This document shows, one piece after another, positions 4,024 to 43,188 of a DNA stretch of 45,105 nt; within the stretch, counting starts at the first letter, position 1, and each line of letters begins with the position of its first letter. The stretch comes from Methylacidimicrobium cyclopophantes (GTDB lineage: Bacteria; Verrucomicrobiota; Verrucomicrobiia; Methylacidiphilales; Methylacidiphilaceae), in assembly GCF_902143385.2 (NCBI RefSeq), contig NZ_CABFUZ020000259.1, positions 1 through 45,105 of the forward strand, given 5' to 3'. Under the pieces are notes generated by a model. That model was given only the letters and a program-made list of their open reading frames with translations. It ran no database searches and had not been told where the DNA came from. The position numbers and the translations under genes were made by a program.

Positions 4024-6882
4024 TTAGGATCGGCTCCGATTTGCTTGAACGACGCCGGTGCAGCGCGGGCAGAGGGCTGGATGCGCTGGGTCGGTCTTTC
4101 CGACCTCTTCGGAATATTTCCAGCAGCGGGCGCATTGTCGGCCGGATGCCGGTCGGACCCTCACCGCTGGGGATTCTCCCCGGCGCACGCGCACTCGAGA
4201 AACCAGAAAAACTTCGGCGAGCAGCTCCTCGTCCGCACTGTCAAAATGGGGCGTCTGCACCTCCACCTCGGCTTCCAAGGCCTTGCCGATCTCCTTGGCC
4301 CGGCGGCTGACCTCCAAAGCCTCGTTGGAGAGAGCGCGGAGCTCCAGGATCCGGGTCCAGCGTTCGGCGAACGGGGGATCGCTCTTCGGGGCCGCTTCTT
4401 CCGGGAAGAGCTCGAGGTGGACGGAGGCTTTCTTTCCCAAAGCCTCCCACGCCTCCTCGGCCGTAAATGGAAGGATGGGAGCCGCAAGGCGGAAGAGACT
4501 TTCCGCCATCCGGTGGAGCAGAGTCTGAGAGGCGCGCCGGGCCGTGCCGTCGGCGGCATCGCAGTAGAGCCGGTCCTTGAGAACGTCGATGTAGAAGGCG
4601 GAAAGCTCGGTCGAGCAGAAGCGGGTGAGCGCGTGGCAAGCAGCCGGGAACTCGTAGCGTCGGTAGGCCTCGACAACGGTCCGAACGAGGATCCGCAACC
4701 GGTCGGCCATATATCGCTCGAGTTCCGGGAAATCCTCTTCGGAAACCCGATTCCGGGATGGGTCGAAATCATGGAGGTTGGCCAGGAGGATGCGAAAGCT
4801 GTTCCGCAGGAGGCGATAGGTATCGGAGATGCGGGAGAGGATCTCTTGGGAAAAGGGGACGTCGTCCCGATAATCCTCGCTCGCAACCCAAAGCCGGACG
4901 ATGTCCGCCCCGAATTGGCTGATGAATTCGGGGAGGCCGCGGGCTCCCGCCATCTTGGAGAGCTTGCGGCCGTCGAGATCCATCACGAAGCCATTGGTCA
5001 AGACGGTCCGGTAGGGAGCCTGTCCGCTTCGGGCGACCGAGAGCAGGAGAGAGGATTGGAACCAGCCGCGATGCTGGTCGCTCCCTTCCAGGTAAAGGTC
5101 GGCGGGGAATTCCCCGCGGGGGCGGAGCACGGCCGCATGGCTCGAACCCGAATCGATCCAAACGTCGAGCGTGTCGGCTCCTTTACGCAGTCCCGCCGGC
5201 AGGCCGAGTTTCCGGGCCAGAGCTTCCTCGTCGGTCGCATACCAGAGATCCGTCCCCTCTTTCGCCACCTCCCGAGCGAGCTTGCGAATGGCCTCCGGTT
5301 CGAGAACGGCACTCCCGTCCGGCCGGTAAAACACAGGAAGCGGGATACCCCAGTAGCGCTGTCGGGAGACGCACCAGTCCCGCCGGCTCTCGACCGCGCC
5401 GCGGATCCGGTTGCGTGCCCGGGCGGGAAGCCACTCCACTTCCTCGATCGCCCGAAGCGCCTCTTGTTGAAAGGCTTTCACGTCGATGAACCATTGGCGG
5501 ACCGACCGGAAGATGATGGGGGTCTTCGAGCGCCAGCAATGGGGGTAGTCGTGCTCGTAATCCCGCTTCGCCCAGAGAAAGCCCGCGGATTCGAGCAATT
5601 CGATGATTTTGGGATTGCCCTCCTCCCGGACGGAGAGGCCGACGAGCTCGGGAAGCCCGCATTCTTCGGTGAATCGCCCTTCGTCATCGACGGGGGAGAG
5701 GGGAGGCAGCCCGTGTTCCTGGCCGAGCAGGTAGTCTTCCATTCCGTGTCCGGGGGCGATGTGGACGAAACCGGTACCGCTCTCCCCCGTCACGAAGCTC
5801 GCGCCGTAGACCAGACCCGTGCGGGGCAAGAGCGGGTGGCGATAGCGAAGCCCGAGGAGCTCTTCGCCTCGGGGGAAATGGCGTACGCAGGGAGCGTTCT
5901 CGAGACCGGGTATGGCGTGCGCCCGCGCTTCCGCAACGAGAAGATGGCGGCCGCGGGCCGAGTAGAGTCCGTAGGGGAGCTCTGGGTTGAGGGCGACGGC
6001 AAGATTGGCTGGCAATGTCCACGGAGTCGTCGTCCAGATAAGAAGCCTCGCGTCTTCGGAGATGCCGACTTCCCGGCAGCTTTCCGGCAAAAGAGGAAAC
6101 TCGACGTCGATCGCCGGGTCGATTTGGGGCTGATACTCCACCTCGGCCTCCGCCAGAGCCGTCCGGCAACCGATGCTCCAGAAGACGGGGCGGAGTCCTT
6201 CGAAGACCAAGCCCTTTTCGACGAGATCGGCAAAGAGGAGGAGGACCTCGGCTTCGTAGGCGGGATCCATGGTTCGATACGGATGTTCCCAGTCCCCGAA
6301 GATGCCGAGCCGTTCGAACTGCTCGCGCTGGATCTCGACATAGCGCTGCGCATACTCCGCGCACTTCCGGCGGATGTACAGCGGACCGTGCCGCTCGTAT
6401 TGGAAACCCTTGTCATCCGCCTTGATTCCCTCCTCGCCAGCGTGAACCTCGCCTTTCGGAATGGGAGCACCACCTGGGAGCTCCACCTTGGCCTCAAGGA
6501 ACTCGCCGGAGGGCAACTCCTTGATAGGAATGAGCGAGCCAGGAACCCGAACAAAAGACTCCTTCACGACCTTGGTTTCGATGGGGAGACCGTGGCAGTC
6601 CCAGCCCGGGATGTAGGGGGCGAAAAACCCCATCATGTTCCTCGACTTGAGAACCAGATCCTTGAGCGTCTTGTTGAGAGCATGGCCGAGATGGGCGTCT
6701 CCGTTGGCGAAGGGGGGACCGTCGTGGAGAATGAATCGCGGACCGGCGCTGCGTGCCCGGAGGATCTGCTCGTAAAGATTTTCCCGGCGCCACCGCTCCA
6801 GAAGGAGCGGCTCCCGTTTCGGCAGCTCGGCGCGCATCGGAAACGAGGTGCGCGGCAGAAGGACCGTATCGCGGTAATCCAT
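4024..6882 (-). CDS. ileS: Isoleucyl-tRNA synthetase
   Basis: Class I aminoacyl-tRNA synthetase of 952 residues, charging tRNA-Ile in the cytosol. The HIGH motif appears as HLGH (64-67) after GPPFANGDA. The editing domain and anticodon-binding region follow. The C-terminus has the bacterial zinc site with Cys917, 920, 938 and 941 (CARC...CPRC). The usual KMSKS loop reads KLSKM (640-644) and is followed by AGA rather than a KGN-like sequence, which is unusual. The start MDYRDTVLLPRTSF at 6882 is chosen because the open frame upstream only overlaps pheS. It begins 5 bases after the pheS stop, so the two synthetase genes are co-transcribed. Confidence 0.97.
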   Translation of the reverse strand: MDYRDTVLLPRTSFPMRAELPKREPLLLERWRRENLYEQILRARSAGPRFILHDGPPFANGDAHLGHALNKTLKDLVLKSRNMMGFFAPYIPGWDCHGLPIETKVVKESFVRVPGSLIPIKELPSGEFLEAKVELPGGAPIPKGEVHAGEEGIKADDKGFQYERHGPLYIRRKCAEYAQRYVEIQREQFERLGIFGDWEHPYRTMDPAYEAEVLLLFADLVEKGLVFEGLRPVFWSIGCRTALAEAEVEYQPQIDPAIDVEFPLLPESCREVGISEDARLLIWTTTPWTLPANLAVALNPELPYGLYSARGRHLLVAEARAHAIPGLENAPCVRHFPRGEELLGLRYRHPLLPRTGLVYGASFVTGESGTGFVHIAPGHGMEDYLLGQEHGLPPLSPVDDEGRFTEECGLPELVGLSVREEGNPKIIELLESAGFLWAKRDYEHDYPHCWRSKTPIIFRSVRQWFIDVKAFQQEALRAIEEVEWLPARARNRIRGAVESRRDWCVSRQRYWGIPLPVFYRPDGSAVLEPEAIRKLAREVAKEGTDLWYATDEEALARKLGLPAGLRKGADTLDVWIDSGSSHAAVLRPRGEFPADLYLEGSDQHRGWFQSSLLLSVARSGQAPYRTVLTNGFVMDLDGRKLSKMAGARGLPEFISQFGADIVRLWVASEDYRDDVPFSQEILSRISDTYRLLRNSFRILLANLHDFDPSRNRVSEEDFPELERYMADRLRILVRTVVEAYRRYEFPAACHALTRFCSTELSAFYIDVLKDRLYCDAADGTARRASQTLLHRMAESLFRLAAPILPFTAEEAWEALGKKASVHLELFPEEAAPKSDPPFAERWTRILELRALSNEALEVSRRAKEIGKALEAEVEVQTPHFDSADEELLAEVFLVSRVRVRRGESPAVRVRPASGRQCARCWKYSEEVGKTDPAHPALCPRCTGVVQANRSRS

Positions 6883-6887
6883 GGGGG

Positions 6888-7928
6888 TCAAATCGGAGAG
6901 CTCAGGTTGCGCAGGAAGCGGACGTCGTTTTCCGTGAAGAACCGGAGGTCCGGAACCTCTCCGACGATCATCAAGAGGCGTTCGATGCCGAACCCGAAGG
7001 CGAATCCTGAATAGCGGTCCGGGTCGATGCCGACACCCGTGAGGACCTTGGGGTGGACCATCCCGCAGCCGCAAAGTTCGAGCCAATCCTTTCCCGCCTG
7101 CGAGCGGCCGGGCCGGAAGCCGTCGATCTCGAAGCTTGGCTCGGTAAAGGGAAAGTAGTGAGGGCGGAAGCGAAAGCGGGTATCGTGACCGAGCAGCTCC
7201 CGGAAGACGAGCTCGAGCGTCCCCTTGAGGTCGCGCAGGCTCACGTCCTCATCGACGACGAGTCCTTCCACCTGGAAGAAGGCGATCGAGTGGGTGGCGT
7301 CGATTTCATCACGCCGGTAGCAGCGCCCAGGAGCCACGATGCGAATGGGAGGTCGTTGCCTTTCCATGACTCGGATTTGGACGGGGCTCGTCTGGCTTCG
7401 AAGCAGGAGGCGGCCGCCTTTGGGGGAAGGATCGGCGAGGAGAAGGGAGGAATCTCTCAGAAAAAAGGTATCCTGTTCGTTCCTAGCGGGATGATCGGGA
7501 GGAGTGTTGAGAGCATCGAAATTGTAGAATTCCGTCTCCACCTCCGGTCCGTCGGCGAGGGCGAAGCCCAGCCTGCGAAAGATCTCCACGATCTGTCGGG
7601 ACATGCGGGAAATCGGATGGAGAGAACCCTCGGCCACCGGGCGACCCGGCAAGGTGGTATCGAGCGAAGCGGATTGGACTGAAGCGGGGGTGAGGGCCGC
7701 ACGCTTCTCCCGGATAGCCGCTTCGGCCCGATCCTTGAAGGCGTTGATGGCCCGTCCGACCTCGCGCCGGCGTTCCGGCGGCAGGGTGGAGACGGAGGCG
7801 AGCAGGGCGGGGATGATCCCCTTGCGACCGAAATAGCGGATGCGGATCTCCTCAAGAGCGGATTCCGTCTTCGTCGCCGCCAGCGCGGCTTGCAGCTCGC
7901 TCTCCCGATCTTGTATTTCCTTTTCCAC
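6888..7928 (-). CDS. pheS: Phenylalanyl-tRNA synthetase alpha subunit
   Basis: A 346-residue catalytic alpha subunit of the alpha2-beta2 class II synthetase. An N-terminal coiled-coil arm (residues about 1-90) precedes the catalytic core, with DTFFL in the motif region and GFGIERLLMI as class II motif 3 near the C-terminus. The start is GTG at 7928, preceded by a clear GGGAG Shine-Dalgarno sequence about 7 bases upstream. The partner pheT is not next to it: ileS follows directly, so pheT must lie elsewhere in the genome, unlike the common pheST arrangement. Confidence 0.96.
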   Translation of the reverse strand: MEKEIQDRESELQAALAATKTESALEEIRIRYFGRKGIIPALLASVSTLPPERRREVGRAINAFKDRAEAAIREKRAALTPASVQSASLDTTLPGRPVAEGSLHPISRMSRQIVEIFRRLGFALADGPEVETEFYNFDALNTPPDHPARNEQDTFFLRDSSLLLADPSPKGGRLLLRSQTSPVQIRVMERQRPPIRIVAPGRCYRRDEIDATHSIAFFQVEGLVVDEDVSLRDLKGTLELVFRELLGHDTRFRFRPHYFPFTEPSFEIDGFRPGRSQAGKDWLELCGCGMVHPKVLTGVGIDPDRYSGFAFGFGIERLLMIVGEVPDLRFFTENDVRFLRNLSSPI

Positions 7929-7982
7929 GAATCGCTCCCTTGTTAGCGAAAGAGATCTCCCCTCGATGGATCCGCCGTTCCG

Positions 7983-9893
7983 TTACGGAACGGGCGCCGC
8001 TCCCGCGCTCCGGCCCGAGGAGACCTCTTCGGGCGGAAGGACCGTGGCCGTCGGAATCCGATTTTGTTTCGCTCCCCGGTGGAGGAACATGAGGAGAATA
8101 CCGCCGCAAATCAAGATCGAGCCGATCCACTTGCACGGCCAGCCCGGGTCGTAAAGAACCTGGAGGGTGGTCTCGTGGAGGTCGCGGGGATTCCAGGAAG
8201 CCTGAGAAAATTTGTAGTTGCGTCCCAGCGCCGAACGCCAAAAACCTCCAGGAAAGGTGGCCGGCACGTTCATGTGTGCGACCTCGACTCGCTCCGAGCC
8301 CGTTTTTGGATCGCGGAATCGGACGGTGGCTTGAAAGTCGACCGGGGCGTCGCTCCCTTCCTCCCGAGGAACGGCGAACTTTTCCAAGGAAATTTGGAAG
8401 GGGAGCGATCGGCTTTCGAGCCCATAGGCGACGTGCACCGGAATCCCTTCCACCGTAAATGTTTGACTTAGACCGGAGAGAATCCAGAGCGGCGGGGATT
8501 TTACCTGATTCTTGGGATCCTCGACCCAGCCTCGGATGCCGGAGCCGATGGCCATCGTAAAAGGTACGCTGGCTTCGCGCTTGCGAATGGCGGATTGGAT
8601 GGAGGCATGGGGCTCATACCGCAGGAGCGAAGCCTCCCAGTCGGCCCACCCCAGAGAGAAGATCTCTCCGGGAGTTGCGCTGCCCTCCGCGGAGATCCGG
8701 CCCCGCCGGTCGAATGCCCGATAGCCGATGCGGCCGTCGTCCGGGCGTCGCCACAGGAAGAGACCGGAAGAGGAAGCTGTGCCTTCCGCCCAGCGAAGCT
8801 GCACCAAAACCGCGGGATTGTCGGGACTCTCCGAGAGGGAGGTAGGCTTTCCCTCCCGCATCGCGAAGTTGGGCCAATATCCGCGGAGCTCCGCTTTCGC
8901 GCCGCCGGGCAGATCAATGGTCTTGTCGAGATGGGCGGTAACCTCCCAGGCGTTCTTTTGTCCCGATGGGGAGATCGCCACCAAAAGCATTTGCCGGCTC
9001 TCCTCGTCCGGAACGAGGAAAAAGCGGTAGCGGGAAGGAATCCCCTCGACCGAATGGATGACGGGCTGCTCGGGAGCGCGCGCGAAGACGACTTGCGCCT
9101 CGTGCAGCAGACGCCCCGAAGAGGGCGAGGGTGGCTCCGAAAGCCAGTGGATCTTTGCCAGGCCGAAGAAATCCTGGGTCTGGTGGGAGGGCTCATTTTC
9201 CAAAAGAGCCAGAAGAGTTTTCTGCCCGACCATTCGGCTCTGGAGGACCAGAGTCGCGCCGGCGCCCGCAGAAGGATCGGAGGAGGGCGCGACTTCCTCG
9301 GCCAGAATCAAGTCCGAGGAGAAATCGTCGACCACCAAACGAAGATCCGTTCCCGGAACGGAGAGCTTGCGTGGCCGGCTCTCCCGCGGGCGCCAGAGCT
9401 CTGCGGGGAAGGAGACCCGGTAAATCTCCCGGCGAAACGGATCTTCGAGAAAGACGGCGGTCTGATTGAGAGTGACCCGTTCTTCTGGCGGATCTCCGAT
9501 TCGGAGGTGGACGAGACCCTCGAAGCCTCCCAGCCGGCCAATCATCGCTCCCGTCAGGAGCAAGATAATCCCATAGTGGGTGATCACGAAGCCGAGATGG
9601 CGTGGCTTCCAGGGAATCCGGGTGAGCGTCACGGCGAAGAGATTGAGGCAGAGAAGGATGAGCCAACCAAGAAACCAGGGGGATCGATAGACGTAGTATT
9701 GGGCGACCGCCGAATCGAAGCGTGACTCGATCCACGTTGCGCCCGCGCAGGCGGCGGCGAGGGTGAGGAGAAGGCCGACGGCCAGCGGCAGGGAGCCAAA
9801 GGCGTGGATGACTTTCCAAAGCGCGGACTTGCGCCTGCGTTCAGCGATGAACTCTTGGCGCGCCTGGTCGGAGAGGGAAGTGAAGAATTTCAC
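7983..9893 (-). CDS. resB: Cytochrome c biogenesis protein ResB
   Basis: ResB/Ccs1 family membrane protein, about 636 residues, of system II cytochrome c maturation, which together with CcsA/ResC delivers haem to apocytochrome c outside the membrane. Three N-terminal membrane segments (near ALWKVIHAFGSLPLAVGLLL, FLGWLILLCLNLFAV and ITHYGIILLLTGAMI) are followed by a large periplasmic domain and one C-terminal membrane segment (WIGSILICGGILLMFL), the ResB topology. The start is uncertain: GTG at 9893 gives a typical N-terminus but has no strong ribosome binding site. A long open frame extends further upstream into fhs and is ignored. No ccsA is adjacent. pheS follows after 54 bases. Confidence 0.85.
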   Translation of the reverse strand: MKFFTSLSDQARQEFIAERRRKSALWKVIHAFGSLPLAVGLLLTLAAACAGATWIESRFDSAVAQYYVYRSPWFLGWLILLCLNLFAVTLTRIPWKPRHLGFVITHYGIILLLTGAMIGRLGGFEGLVHLRIGDPPEERVTLNQTAVFLEDPFRREIYRVSFPAELWRPRESRPRKLSVPGTDLRLVVDDFSSDLILAEEVAPSSDPSAGAGATLVLQSRMVGQKTLLALLENEPSHQTQDFFGLAKIHWLSEPPSPSSGRLLHEAQVVFARAPEQPVIHSVEGIPSRYRFFLVPDEESRQMLLVAISPSGQKNAWEVTAHLDKTIDLPGGAKAELRGYWPNFAMREGKPTSLSESPDNPAVLVQLRWAEGTASSSGLFLWRRPDDGRIGYRAFDRRGRISAEGSATPGEIFSLGWADWEASLLRYEPHASIQSAIRKREASVPFTMAIGSGIRGWVEDPKNQVKSPPLWILSGLSQTFTVEGIPVHVAYGLESRSLPFQISLEKFAVPREEGSDAPVDFQATVRFRDPKTGSERVEVAHMNVPATFPGGFWRSALGRNYKFSQASWNPRDLHETTLQVLYDPGWPCKWIGSILICGGILLMFLHRGAKQNRIPTATVLPPEEVSSGRSAGAAPVP

Positions 9894-38861: not shown

Positions 38862-40196
38862 TCATGACGCTTGGGAGACAGAAGAGAAGGTAAATTCCTT
38901 GGCGACGAGCGCCGGCACGCAAGCGGGCAGATCGTCGATCTCCGACCCGACCGTCGCCTCGGGCTTTCCCAGAGCGAGAACATTTTTGAGAAGGTTCACC
39001 GGGCTTTCGTTGAATCGGAAGTTGTTCACCGGATGGGCGATCTTCCCCTTTTCGATCCAAAAGGTTCCGTCCCGGGTCAGGCCCGTGAGGAGGAGTGTGC
39101 GCGGATCCACCGTCCGGATATACCAGAGCCGGGTGATCAACAGGCCTCGATCGATGCCCTGGATCAATTCTTCCCTCGATCGATCGCCGCCCGACAGGAG
39201 CAGATTCGTCGGCTCGGGAACTACCGGAGCCTTCTTCTCCTGTGCCCAAAATCGCGAGCGGATCAACTCGCGCAGCGTGCCTCTCTCGATCCAGCTCCGC
39301 GGTGCGGCGGGCAGCCCGTCGGTCGAATAGATGGAGCCGGGTGCCGTGGAGTCTCCTGGATCCGAGCGAAGAGTGACGGAATCCGCAAAGAGCTTCTCGC
39401 CCAGAAGAGTCCCTCCTCCCGGCCGAGAAAGAAAGCTTCTCCCCTCGTCGGCAGGACGGGCCTGGAGGGAAAGCAAGAGGAAACCGACTAGATCGCATAC
39501 GGCCGAAGGCTCGAGCAGAACGGTGAATTGTCCCGGGTCGAGGGCTTGCGGATGACGCGAGCGCAGAGCCTTTTCCATTGCCTGCTCCACGAGGGAGCGG
39601 AGGGAAATCTCGGCGGGAGAATAGGCTGCGACTGCGGCCCACCCCGCCCCTTCCCCATCTCGGGTTCGTGCGGAGACCGCGTAGTGCAAGCGAGTCGCCT
39701 GCTGAAAGACCCAAAGGCCGGTCGTGGCCATATAGGCCGAAAAGCTGGTTTCACATTCCAGAAAAGCGGCCCCGATGACCCGCTTGGCCTCCGCCGCCGC
39801 AAGAATCGTCGTGGCCTGCTCGGCGAGGGCCTTTGCCGTCAACCGCGCCGCCTCCGCGGAATAGCCCTGGGCGGCGGGATAGATTTGGGGGGGAGGAGGA
39901 GGAAGAAATTCGGGATCTTCCGGAGAAATTCGCGCGATCTCTTCGGATCGCCGGACGAGCGAGGCGAGGTCGCCAGGGTCCGCCTTATTCCCCGCAGCTT
40001 CTCCTCGACGCTTCCCGAAGGAGGATTCGACGCGGCAATGGAAGCCCTCGTCCTCGCCGTCTGTCGTGACCGTATTGCGGGCAATGCGGACGTTGAGGCG
40101 GGTCCAGCCCGAGATCTCGGCGACGGCGGTTTCCGCCCGGGAGTAGGAGAGGAGCTTGGTGCCAATTTCCCGGACTTCCCCTTCCGAGAGGATCAT
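38862..40196 (-). CDS. pmbA: TldE/PmbA-type metallopeptidase subunit
   Basis: A 444-residue PmbA/TldE family protein, the non-catalytic partner in the TldD-TldE heterodimeric protease that processes peptides such as microcin B17 and CcdA in E. coli. Conserved PmbA regions are seen near the C-terminus (RTVDPRTLLLTGLTRDGTFWIEKGKIAHPVNNFRFNES). It carries no HExxxH zinc motif and no signal peptide. The ATG at 40196 is preceded by GGGAGG at good spacing and overlaps the tldD stop (ATGA), so the two subunits are made together. Confidence 0.92.
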   Translation of the reverse strand: MILSEGEVREIGTKLLSYSRAETAVAEISGWTRLNVRIARNTVTTDGEDEGFHCRVESSFGKRRGEAAGNKADPGDLASLVRRSEEIARISPEDPEFLPPPPPQIYPAAQGYSAEAARLTAKALAEQATTILAAAEAKRVIGAAFLECETSFSAYMATTGLWVFQQATRLHYAVSARTRDGEGAGWAAVAAYSPAEISLRSLVEQAMEKALRSRHPQALDPGQFTVLLEPSAVCDLVGFLLLSLQARPADEGRSFLSRPGGGTLLGEKLFADSVTLRSDPGDSTAPGSIYSTDGLPAAPRSWIERGTLRELIRSRFWAQEKKAPVVPEPTNLLLSGGDRSREELIQGIDRGLLITRLWYIRTVDPRTLLLTGLTRDGTFWIEKGKIAHPVNNFRFNESPVNLLKNVLALGKPEATVGSEIDDLPACVPALVAKEFTFSSVSQAS

Positions 40197-41761
40197 GCTC
40201 CCCTCCCGGTATTCAGCACATGGATGCCCCGAAAGCGAGCGGGTACGACTCCATGAGAAACCGGAGCCGATTGGACCGGCTGTCCCTTCCCGCAAGAAAG
40301 GGTTCCCCCGAGCCAGTACTCCTTTGCGCCGCCGAGGCCGTCACAAGCATTCCAGAACGGCACGGTGGTCCCTTGGTAGGCAACGTCCCGGAGCATCTCC
40401 CCGAGCTTGCCCTTCCGGATTTCGTAGAAGAGCTGCCCTCCAAACTGAAAGTTTTTCCGTTGTTGATCAATGCTCCAGCTTCCGTCTCCGACGATGTAAA
40501 TCCCATCCTCGACGCCGGCGATCAACTCCTCCAGGGAGACATCCCGTTCCGACGGCTGCAAGGAGATGTTGGGCATGCGCTGGATCGGGAAGTAGGCGTG
40601 TCCCTCCGCGAAGGAGCAGGCGTTCGAATGAGGCAGGCCGATCCAGCGAGACTGGCCGATCGCCATTTGAAAATTTTCGAAGCGTCCTCGGGAGATGATC
40701 GGAAATCGAGCGAAGCGCGCCGGCATTCCATCGTCGTCGTAGGCCGCGGTCGCCAAGCCTCCCGGCTGATCCCGATCGGCCATCACCGTCACGATCTCGC
40801 TGGCAAAGCGCAAGCGGCCTCGGTCGGATGGCTTGACAAAGGTGGTACCGGCAAAACCCGCTTCATAGCCGAAGGCCCGATCGAGCTCGGTCGAGTGGCC
40901 GATCGTCTCGTGCAGGGTAAGCCACAGGTTCGTCGGATGAATTACCAGATCCTTCTTCCCCGCGGTGACAGGTTTGGCCTGGAGCTTGCGGCGTGCGTCT
41001 TCCGCCGCCTGCCGCGCCTCGAGCTTCCAATCATGGGATAAGACGTACTCGAAGCCGGCCGCCCTGGGTGGCAGGAGACTCGATCGGCTGGCGAAGCGTC
41101 CCGTTTTCGGATCGGTGGCGGTGACGGTGAGGTGGGGATAGGTTCGGAAGAAGAGCTGCTCGAGAAAGGAGCCGCGGCTCGACGCGAAAAACTTTTCCTG
41201 CCGAACGAAAAGGAAGAAGCTCCGACAGAAAGGAGCCCCGGCCGCCCGAGCTTCCGCATTGATTTTCAGGAGCTGCTCCGCCTTGCGATCCAGAGGGATG
41301 GCGAAAGGGTCCTGCTCGGTAGGCACGCGCCAGCGGTCGGTCTTTGCTTCGATCGACTCCAGTTCGACGAGCTGGGTCGCGAGAACTCGGTTGGCCTTGG
41401 CTACTTCTACCGCGTTTCGTGCGCACGCGGACGCATGGGCCGGGTCGAGTACGCTCGTCGAGCTGAATCCCCAAACCCCGTTGACAAGGACACGTACGCC
41501 GAGACCGCTGCTGGTCGACACCTCGACGTTCTCAATGCGCTCTTCTCGGGCCGACAGCAGTTCCGACTCGGTAAAAAGAACGCGTAGGTCGGCATATCCG
41601 GCTCCCGCGGTGCGAGCGGAGTCCAAGGCCGCCTCCGCGAGCCGAGCGGCTTCTTCCCGACGGGAAGAGGGGTCGTCGGACGATGCAGCGGCCAAAGGAG
41701 AGCCGCCTCCGAGAAGGCCGGCAGCCAGGCTTTGAAGAAATTTTCTGCGGGAGATGCTCAT
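40193..41761 (-). CDS. tldD: TldD-type metallopeptidase with Tat signal
   Basis: A 522-residue TldD family zinc peptidase. The active-site helix HETIGHSTELD holds His284, Glu285 and His289. The N-terminus MSISRRKFLQSLAAGLLGG is a clear twin-arginine signal (SRRKFLQ followed by a hydrophobic stretch and an Ala-rich cleavage region near residue 26), whereas E. coli TldD is cytosolic. The start is ATG at 41761, with GGAGA about 14 bases upstream. It is the first gene of the pair with pmbA and divergent from the M20 gene. Export of the folded protein is predicted; the partner has no signal. Confidence 0.92.
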   Translation of the reverse strand: MSISRRKFLQSLAAGLLGGGSPLAAASSDDPSSRREEAARLAEAALDSARTAGAGYADLRVLFTESELLSAREERIENVEVSTSSGLGVRVLVNGVWGFSSTSVLDPAHASACARNAVEVAKANRVLATQLVELESIEAKTDRWRVPTEQDPFAIPLDRKAEQLLKINAEARAAGAPFCRSFFLFVRQEKFFASSRGSFLEQLFFRTYPHLTVTATDPKTGRFASRSSLLPPRAAGFEYVLSHDWKLEARQAAEDARRKLQAKPVTAGKKDLVIHPTNLWLTLHETIGHSTELDRAFGYEAGFAGTTFVKPSDRGRLRFASEIVTVMADRDQPGGLATAAYDDDGMPARFARFPIISRGRFENFQMAIGQSRWIGLPHSNACSFAEGHAYFPIQRMPNISLQPSERDVSLEELIAGVEDGIYIVGDGSWSIDQQRKNFQFGGQLFYEIRKGKLGEMLRDVAYQGTTVPFWNACDGLGGAKEYWLGGTLSCGKGQPVQSAPVSHGVVPARFRGIHVLNTGRGA

Positions 41762-41931
41762 CGCATTCCGTACTCGGTCTCCTTTTACCCATAGCAAGGT
41801 CCGGAGGGCGGGGGCAAGGGCCGGTTTGTTCTTTCCAAGGGGGATCGCGGCCGGCGAAGGGAGGAGAGAGCGTACCGAGAAAAAGGCTGCGATCGCGTGC
41901 CGCCGTGATAAAAAGAAAGAAGAGGCAAAAC

Positions 41932-43188
41932 GTGAATATCGACGCGGAAGCTTGGCTGGAAAATCACCTGGGTGAGCTCTGCGCCTTTCTCGGCGAGCTC
42001 GTGCGCATTCCGACTGTGAATCCTCCCGGACGCAATTATACGGTTCTGGTCGAAAGACTGGAAACGAAGCTGCGGGAGCTCGACTTATCCGTCGAGAGGT
42101 TAACCGTTCCCGAGGAGGTTGCCGCAAAGTCCCTGCCTCCCGGCTCCGCCGATTTGCCGCGGCACAACGTTATCGGCAGATGGGATGTCGGAGCCAAAAA
42201 GACCGTTCAGTTCAATTCCCACTACGACGTGGTTCCGGAGGCGGGAGCTTGGAAGCACGATCCTTTTTCCGGAGAGCGCGACGGCGACTGGCTTTTCGGC
42301 CGGGGGACCGCCGACATGAAGGGATCGCTTGTCGCGAGCCTCTTCGCGGTCGAAGCGCTCCGGCGAACGGGCATCCGGCCGCGGGTGAACGTGGAGCTCG
42401 CTTTCGTGGCCGACGAGGAGATCGGCGGAGAGCTCGGCACAGGGTATCTCGTCAGCCATCGCAGAGAGCTTCCGGATTTTGCCATCGTTTGCGAAGGGGG
42501 AGCGGCGGGCAAAATCGGGATCGGCCATAACGGCATTGTGCAATTGGAGGTGACGGTCCTCGGCAAAGGAGGGCATTCGGCCTATCCTAGGGGGACGGTA
42601 AACGCTTTCGAGCGGATGATCGCTTTCGCCGCGAGCCTCGAGCCGCGGATCAAGGAGACGTTGGCCGATCCTCGGAAGCGGTTCACGACCCCGTCGGGCG
42701 AAAGGTTGGAGCCCGTGGTCAATCTGGGAGGGATCTTCGGACCCGGAAAGGCGGGGAAGGTGAACATCATTCCTGGCGAAGCCCACTTCACGATCGATCG
42801 CCGGCTTACTCCGGTCGAGGAGGTGCCGGTAGTGGAGAAGGAATTGCGGGAAATGATCCGATCGACCGCCGAGCGGTGTCGAGCGGGAATTCGGATTCGA
42901 AAGATCCATACGACGGCTCCGTGTGCGCTCTCGCCTCGTTCCGTGCTGCCCCAGCAGTTCCGAAAGGCGGTGGAGGCGGTACGGGGAGGACATGCGCGTT
43001 TCACCGTCAATCGAGGAGCGACCGATATGCACTACTACGCTCGAAAACGGGGCATCGATACGATCGGCTACGGGGTTGAGGGGAAAAACATCCACGGAGG
43101 CGAGGAACGGATTCCTGTCGACGATCTAGTGACCACCGCGCAGGTGTACGCTCGATTTCTGCGCGATTTCGCCCCTACGGGGCCGTAG
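41932..43188 (+). CDS. M20-family metallopeptidase/deacylase
   Basis: A 418-residue cytosolic M20 enzyme (ArgE/DapE/carboxypeptidase G2 type). Metal-binding and catalytic residues are visible in SHYDVVP (His, Asp), GRGTADMKG (Asp), DEEIGG (Glu-Glu) and the C-terminal NIHGGEERIPVDDL (His). The dimerisation domain lies between, around GKGGHSAYPRGTVNAFERM. The substrate, amino-acid amide or dipeptide, cannot be decided; the ArgE, DapE and dipeptidase branches share these motifs. The start is GTG at 41932 behind AGAGG; the frame upstream reads the divergent tldD leader. The 170 bases to tldD presumably hold both promoters. Confidence 0.9.
   Translation: MNIDAEAWLENHLGELCAFLGELVRIPTVNPPGRNYTVLVERLETKLRELDLSVERLTVPEEVAAKSLPPGSADLPRHNVIGRWDVGAKKTVQFNSHYDVVPEAGAWKHDPFSGERDGDWLFGRGTADMKGSLVASLFAVEALRRTGIRPRVNVELAFVADEEIGGELGTGYLVSHRRELPDFAIVCEGGAAGKIGIGHNGIVQLEVTVLGKGGHSAYPRGTVNAFERMIAFAASLEPRIKETLADPRKRFTTPSGERLEPVVNLGGIFGPGKAGKVNIIPGEAHFTIDRRLTPVEEVPVVEKELREMIRSTAERCRAGIRIRKIHTTAPCALSPRSVLPQQFRKAVEAVRGGHARFTVNRGATDMHYYARKRGIDTIGYGVEGKNIHGGEERIPVDDLVTTAQVYARFLRDFAPTGP

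Follow-up and report, generated by a model that had tools for sequence, protein, structure and literature searches.

A twin-arginine signal on TldD and a leaderless PmbA partner point to a putative exported branch of the TldD/TldE peptidase family

Introduction

The closest described system to the gene pair analysed here is TldD/TldE of E. coli (TldE is also named PmbA; MEROPS M103, PDB 5NJ5). In the account given in PMC5810440, the metal of E. coli TldD is bound by His262, His267 and Cys454, and the site is held by Lys456, Glu270 and Asp272. Peptidases of this family are described in PMC5810440 and PMC10885120 as trimming unfolded N-termini and as not being sequence-specific. A second point of comparison is provided by Tat hitchhikers such as PaoABC, in which, as presented in PMC4273604, a signal on one subunit takes leaderless partners along; those of the PaoABC type are redox cofactor enzymes. 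Finally, an uncharacterised operon with two TldD genes and a MoxR-like ATPase gene is mentioned for Stenotrophomonas in PMC7688217, where some of its genes are given as lower in biofilms in all isolates.

An exported TldD/PmbA pair was not found described in the open full-text literature, searched under names other than the older peptidase U62. The same literature yielded no TldD with a Tat signal and no modulator of DNA gyrase named together with twin-arginine. One article, PMC11508158, mentions TldD and twin-arginine, apart from each other in the text that was matched, and is also the sole match for PmbA with twin-arginine.

We analysed a 45,105-nt stretch of DNA from Methylacidimicrobium cyclopophantes, in full length referred to as the window; all coordinates refer to it. 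The original prediction was that its TldD opens with a Tat-type signal, that the adjoining PmbA has no leader, and that the two may be exported together to act on periplasmic peptides.

Results

The features of the locus are listed in Table 1. The pair is the only TldD/PmbA pair in the 2.28-Mb source genome (G000), which contains one match to PF01523 and two to PF19289. In the window TldD all three TldD/PmbA domains of Pfam scored over cut-off; in PmbA domains 2 and 3 were matched, and domain 1 was not detected by Pfam. TldD retains H284, E285, H289, E292, D294, C490 and K492, corresponding to the E. coli set, and thus has the HExxxH motif and the Cys ligand that characterise M103. The PmbA sequence contains no HE, as befits the inactive partner of the same fold. 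The pair therefore shares with E. coli TldD/TldE the domains, HExxxH plus Cys, the Glu/Asp/Lys tether, the inactive partner and the adjacent or paired genes. The window TldD shares 90% identity with its counterpart in Methylacidimicrobium tartarophylax (L031), and it scored below cut-off both with the E. coli equivalog PRK10735 of NCBIfam (39.7 bits, cut-off 513) and with archaeal TldD NF040952 (125.9 bits, cut-off 635). Two actinobacterial pairs (L034, L035) have a TldD 43-44% identical to it and an adjoining PmbA, but differ in having no Tat signal and an acidic PmbA.

Table 1. Coordinates of the gene pair, its predicted signal and metal site, and the divergent neighbour
Feature	Position in the window	Strand	Remarks
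tldD	40193..41761	-	522 aa, ATG start; Tat-type TldD of the Cys branch
pmbA (tldE-like)	38862..40196	-	444 aa, leaderless, without HExxxH
Predicted Tat signal peptide, residues 1-26	41684..41761	-	predicted cleavage after AAA
Twin-arginine codons (Arg5-Arg6)	41744..41749	-	
HExxxH metal and catalytic motif (His284-His289)	40895..40912	-	equivalents of His262 and His267 in PMC5810440
Third metal ligand, Cys490	40292..40294	-	Asp in the operon-linked branch
M20-family ArgE/DapE deacylase, divergent neighbour	41932..43188	+	no signal by sequence

The two genes share four bases where the ATG of pmbA meets the stop of tldD, an arrangement present in 9/9 Methylacidiphilaceae pairs measured. Among 26 pairs overall, the distance from TldD stop to PmbA start ranged from -4 to 97 bases. 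TldD and PmbA distances are correlated (32 loci, one pair each), with a Mantel r of 0.975 that was reached in 0/2000 permutations, includes shared descent and is no proof of contact. AlphaFold models of TldD and of PmbA, built from few alignment rows, had a mean pLDDT of 35 each, too low for use. The M20 gene adjoins the pair in 6/6 Methylacidiphilaceae neighbourhoods compared and may be a mere neighbour.

We next consider the N-terminus of TldD. It reads MSISRRKFLQSLAAGLLGGGSPLAAASS, with RR at residues 5-6 followed by 21 uncharged residues and an AxA before residue 27. Signals were scored by hydropathy and by the pattern RR.[FGAVML][LITMVF], which we take to be that of TatP. No signal is given for E. 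coli TldD in the descriptions of it that we cite, unlike the window TldD. The validity of the N-terminus depends on the start codon, and a later start that removes the twin arginines had been named as a possible objection to the original prediction. When six Methylacidimicrobium-type genes were compared with the window, DNA identity was 0.53-0.56 over the 60 bases upstream of the ATG and 0.91 over the first 30 bases that follow it. Within those 30 bases, identity was 0.98 at codon positions 1 and 2 and 0.76 at the third position. Coding selection thus begins at the tldD ATG, making a later start unlikely; the jump in identity and the third-position changes led us to discard this candidate. The RR motif, the hydrophobic stretch and the cleavage motif of a Tat substrate, as judged by pattern and hydropathy, are all found at this supported start. 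In the other genus of the family, Methylacidiphilum-type genes (L008-L010) start at a TTG with LNCDRRNFIK, and Tat-type TldDs of Pseudomonadota have starts of the kind MDRRDFLQFAGAGIGALLLPVYGRAIAAEE. Across the two phyla the N-terminus keeps RR, the hydrophobic stretch and usually AxA, while the remainder varies. A Tat translocase, as judged by TatC, is available: TatC is present in single copy in G000 and was found in 22/22 genomes checked.

To place the signal in the family, we refer to a TldD tree with 47 rows. The motif was present in 32/33 rows of one clade and in 0/14 other rows; the pattern was sought in as many as 75 residues preceding the core, a span that can take in untranslated frame, and the rows were checked by eye. 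The clade comprises Methylacidiphilaceae, another verrucomicrobial lineage and Pseudomonadota. Its Cys branch holds 13 rows, 10 of them from Methylacidiphilaceae and 3 belonging to the class of G478. Its Asp branch holds 20 rows: L084, found in the verrucomicrobial genome G257, and, for the remainder, members of the same phylum as G288, which is the source of L032 and an alphaproteobacterial MAG according to its record. The motif is present in the operon-type rows L056, L061, L063 and L076; one L055 row is cut by the locus edge. The 14 rows without it include two actinobacterial rows that branch beside the clade, and the branch uniting these with the clade (35 rows in total) has a support of only 81/95. 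A second sample was drawn from the family of G385, in which 49 genomes matched; 5 were already in the earlier set, the loci of 27 new genomes were read and 17 were outside this reading. Here, 30/30 TldDs with a complete N-terminus carry the motif. Given 32/33 against 0/14 rows, together with 30/30, a chance RR motif was ruled out. The Tat-type start of TldD is thus borne out by its uncharged stretch, its AxA and the clade-wide motif, and a survey of homologues, as the original prediction had proposed, found the signal to be a property of this clade. Conservation in two phyla, the start-codon comparison and the occurrence of TatC strongly support the predicted Tat targeting of TldD.

The clade is patchy, yet common in some families, as indicated by match rates from 3/321 to 49/119. 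TldD matches were found in 22/288 genomes of the window's phylum at 1e-3, in 22/398 of the phylum of G288 at 1e-40, in 4/289 of the class of G478 at 1e-70, in 3/321 of the class of G413 at 1e-60 (all already known) and in 49/119 of the family of G385 at 1e-60. In the window's own family, six of seven searched genomes have TldD; G008 is without it. Homologues annotated on plasmids carry the name TldD/PmbA family protein. Two Tat-type TldD genes adjoin one PmbA gene in L088, L089, L092, L097 and L112.

The two branches of the clade differ at the third metal ligand. At the Cys position, Asp was found in 20/20 tree rows of the Asp branch and in 27/27 sequences of the second sample read to their end (a further three run off the end of their locus); examples are L084:9467-11476 and L087:6886-8949. 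The Cys branch has Cys in 13/13 rows, as do 13/14 of the other rows (L033 gave no pattern match), and in ordinary paralogs the Cys site was matched by pattern in 5/10. The Asp would presumably bind the metal.

The window PmbA starts MILSEGEVREIG. Neither an RR motif nor an uncharged stretch of more than 5 residues occurs near this start, and the protein begins at its folded domain. PmbA starts were scored in both samples (26 in the first set, 24 in the second; the broken L029 frame was excluded), and the motif was matched in 1/50. The sole match, ARRVLV in L085, lies in a charged stretch with a hydrophobic run of at most 4 residues and is meaningless. The PmbA starts thus agree with the original prediction of a leaderless partner, and the signal is on one subunit only, as in Tat hitchhikers.

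If PmbA shares the compartment of TldD, its surface may show it. The mean net charge of PmbA was -1.2 at 24 loci with a Tat-type TldD versus -11.0 at 14 loci without. Within genomes, the Tat-paired PmbA was less negative than the ordinary paralog in 11/11 cases and the Tat-type TldD in 9/10. The MoxR protein encoded in the operon described below is more negative per residue than PmbA at 12 loci; note that it is a different protein and expected to be cytosolic. The charge shift possibly arose once or twice, so that the contrasts offer few independent cases, and a single ancestral shift accounts for most of the charge figures. A low Cys content was also considered as a sign of export and is absent in the window's family, where TldD has a mean of 6.4 Cys compared to 5.0 in the leaderless outgroup.

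The charge data bear on a reading in which TldD is exported alone via Tat, as a homodimer or with another partner, and PmbA remains cytosolic. In favour of this reading, PmbA itself lacks a signal, some loci have two Tat-type TldD genes per PmbA gene, and homodimers of E. coli TldD are reported as possible in solution in PMC5810440. However, according to the same source the E. coli activity needs both proteins. In addition, the two genes are always adjacent, with the four-base overlap in the window's family, and co-diverge, and the charge of PmbA tracks the signal on TldD. On balance we regard export of TldD alone as unlikely.

The one exception in the clade provides a further comparison. L086 (the same gene as L052; G478:C6:4055000-4071000) is the only leaderless member: the frame of its TldD (7700-9259) has a stop 14 codons before the first ATG and no motif. 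Its PmbA has a charge of -11, compared to +8 and +3 in the Tat-bearing sisters, and G478 holds no other TldD/PmbA pair. Together with the charge data, L086 fits co-export with one reversal, a reading based on few independent contrasts. Eleven Tat-bearing proteobacterial genomes also hold ordinary TldD/PmbA genes (in G932, PmbA only). In G000, G265, G072, G413 and G257 there is no other complete pair (G257 has one extra fragment).

The latter five genomes lend weight to another alternative, namely that the N-terminal segment is not used for export, or exports a small share, and that the pair is a cytosolic enzyme, as in E. coli; as the only pair in its genome, the window's pair would then serve the ordinary role. 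Two features count for such a cytosolic pair and against co-export: the Cys ligand, replaced in the operon-linked branch, is retained in that of the window, and the M20 neighbour is cytosolic by sequence. Coding selection on the N-terminus, the retention in both phyla of RR, a hydrophobic stretch and, in most cases, AxA, and the ordinary genes found besides the Tat-type pair in the eleven proteobacterial genomes argue against it. We give a purely or largely cytosolic role a low probability, below that of TldD being exported alone.

A role in PQQ maturation was also considered, in which the pair would trim PqqA. A link of tldD to PQQ is known from Gluconobacter, and Methylacidiphilaceae carry PqqE. 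On the other hand, PqqA is made in the cytosol, and the distributions do not agree. G008, a near-complete genome of the same family (other genus), has PqqE and TatC without any TldD/E, and G257 has a Tat-type TldD but no PqqE over cut-off. Because the distributions of PqqE and TldD/E disagree in G008 and G257, we rejected this role, which appears highly improbable.

Analysis of the gene neighbourhoods revealed an operon downstream of the pair in 12/16 cases. It encodes a DUF4159 protein, a MoxR-type AAA ATPase, a DUF58/VWA protein and a BatA-type membrane protein, and most of the 12 operons also hold a large protein without Pfam match. These loci (L084 and L087-L097, from G257, G445, G684, G381, G315, G575, G413, G585, G558, G664, G618 and G593) carry one or two Tat-type TldD genes plus PmbA. 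The N-terminus of DUF4159 is hydrophobic and, by eye, signal-like in 10/12 loci, with RR in four, a point in favour of an exported pair. Four neighbourhoods are without the operon: two from Methylacidiphilaceae, plus L085 and L086. DUF4159 was absent from 7/7 Methylacidiphilaceae genomes; thus the pair in the window functions without this operon. A scan of the genes around L085, L086 and L111 revealed no conserved neighbour for Cys-branch members outside Methylacidiphilaceae. A search for DUF4159 in the open full-text literature found nothing. The Stenotrophomonas operon, as described in PMC7688217, resembles the operon-linked branch in gene make-up and may be the same operon; unlike Stenotrophomonas, the window's own family does without it.

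Discussion

The reading we consider the most probable, with some reservation, is an exported branch of TldD/TldE (M103) in which the Tat signal on TldD would ship a folded heterodimer with the leaderless PmbA as passenger, for peptide trimming in the periplasm. TldD would fold and take up its metal in the cytosol, where the inactive partner PmbA would join it. Guided by the Tat signal of TldD, the folded pair would then cross the inner membrane. Once periplasmic, this hollow heterodimer would trim the N-termini of unfolded or leader peptides, the activity that its E. coli counterpart has in the cytosol. The proposal that the pair travels together has gained indirect support from gene adjacency, co-divergence and the charge shift of PmbA, and would fit the Tat hitchhiker route. 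The difference from the PaoABC-type enzymes of PMC4273604 is that the predicted passenger complex is a peptidase. Action on periplasmic peptides is what we infer from the chemistry of the family; our best guess is a general trimming of unfolded or cleaved envelope peptides.

A broader reading, to which we give slightly less than an even chance, is that of an extracytoplasmic TldD/E branch, present in two or more phyla, whose assembled heterodimer would be exported by a single Tat signal. The larger part of the branch would act within the DUF4159/MoxR/DUF58/BatA operon as an envelope peptide-processing or quality-control machine, with the oxidisable Cys ligand swapped for Asp. Loss of the signal would make the pair a cytosolic TldD/E again, as in G478.

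If true, an exported branch would give the TldD/E family a second compartment and place a peptidase among the Tat hitchhikers, most of which bear cofactors. It would also suggest a reason for the use of Tat, namely that the metal is loaded before export. The Cys and Asp sites would offer a paired comparison of metal-site adaptation to the envelope, and the uncharacterised MoxR/DUF4159 operon would gain a testable place of action.

Two minor observations concern the loci of the window's family. In L029, a metagenome-derived Methylacidiphilaceae contig, the PmbA frame (5753-7084) is broken, by assembly error or decay. In the window, the short stretch that separates tldD from the divergent M20 gene (41762-41931) includes a part, ccttgctatgggtaaa, that L028, L029 and L031 share and that may contain a promoter.
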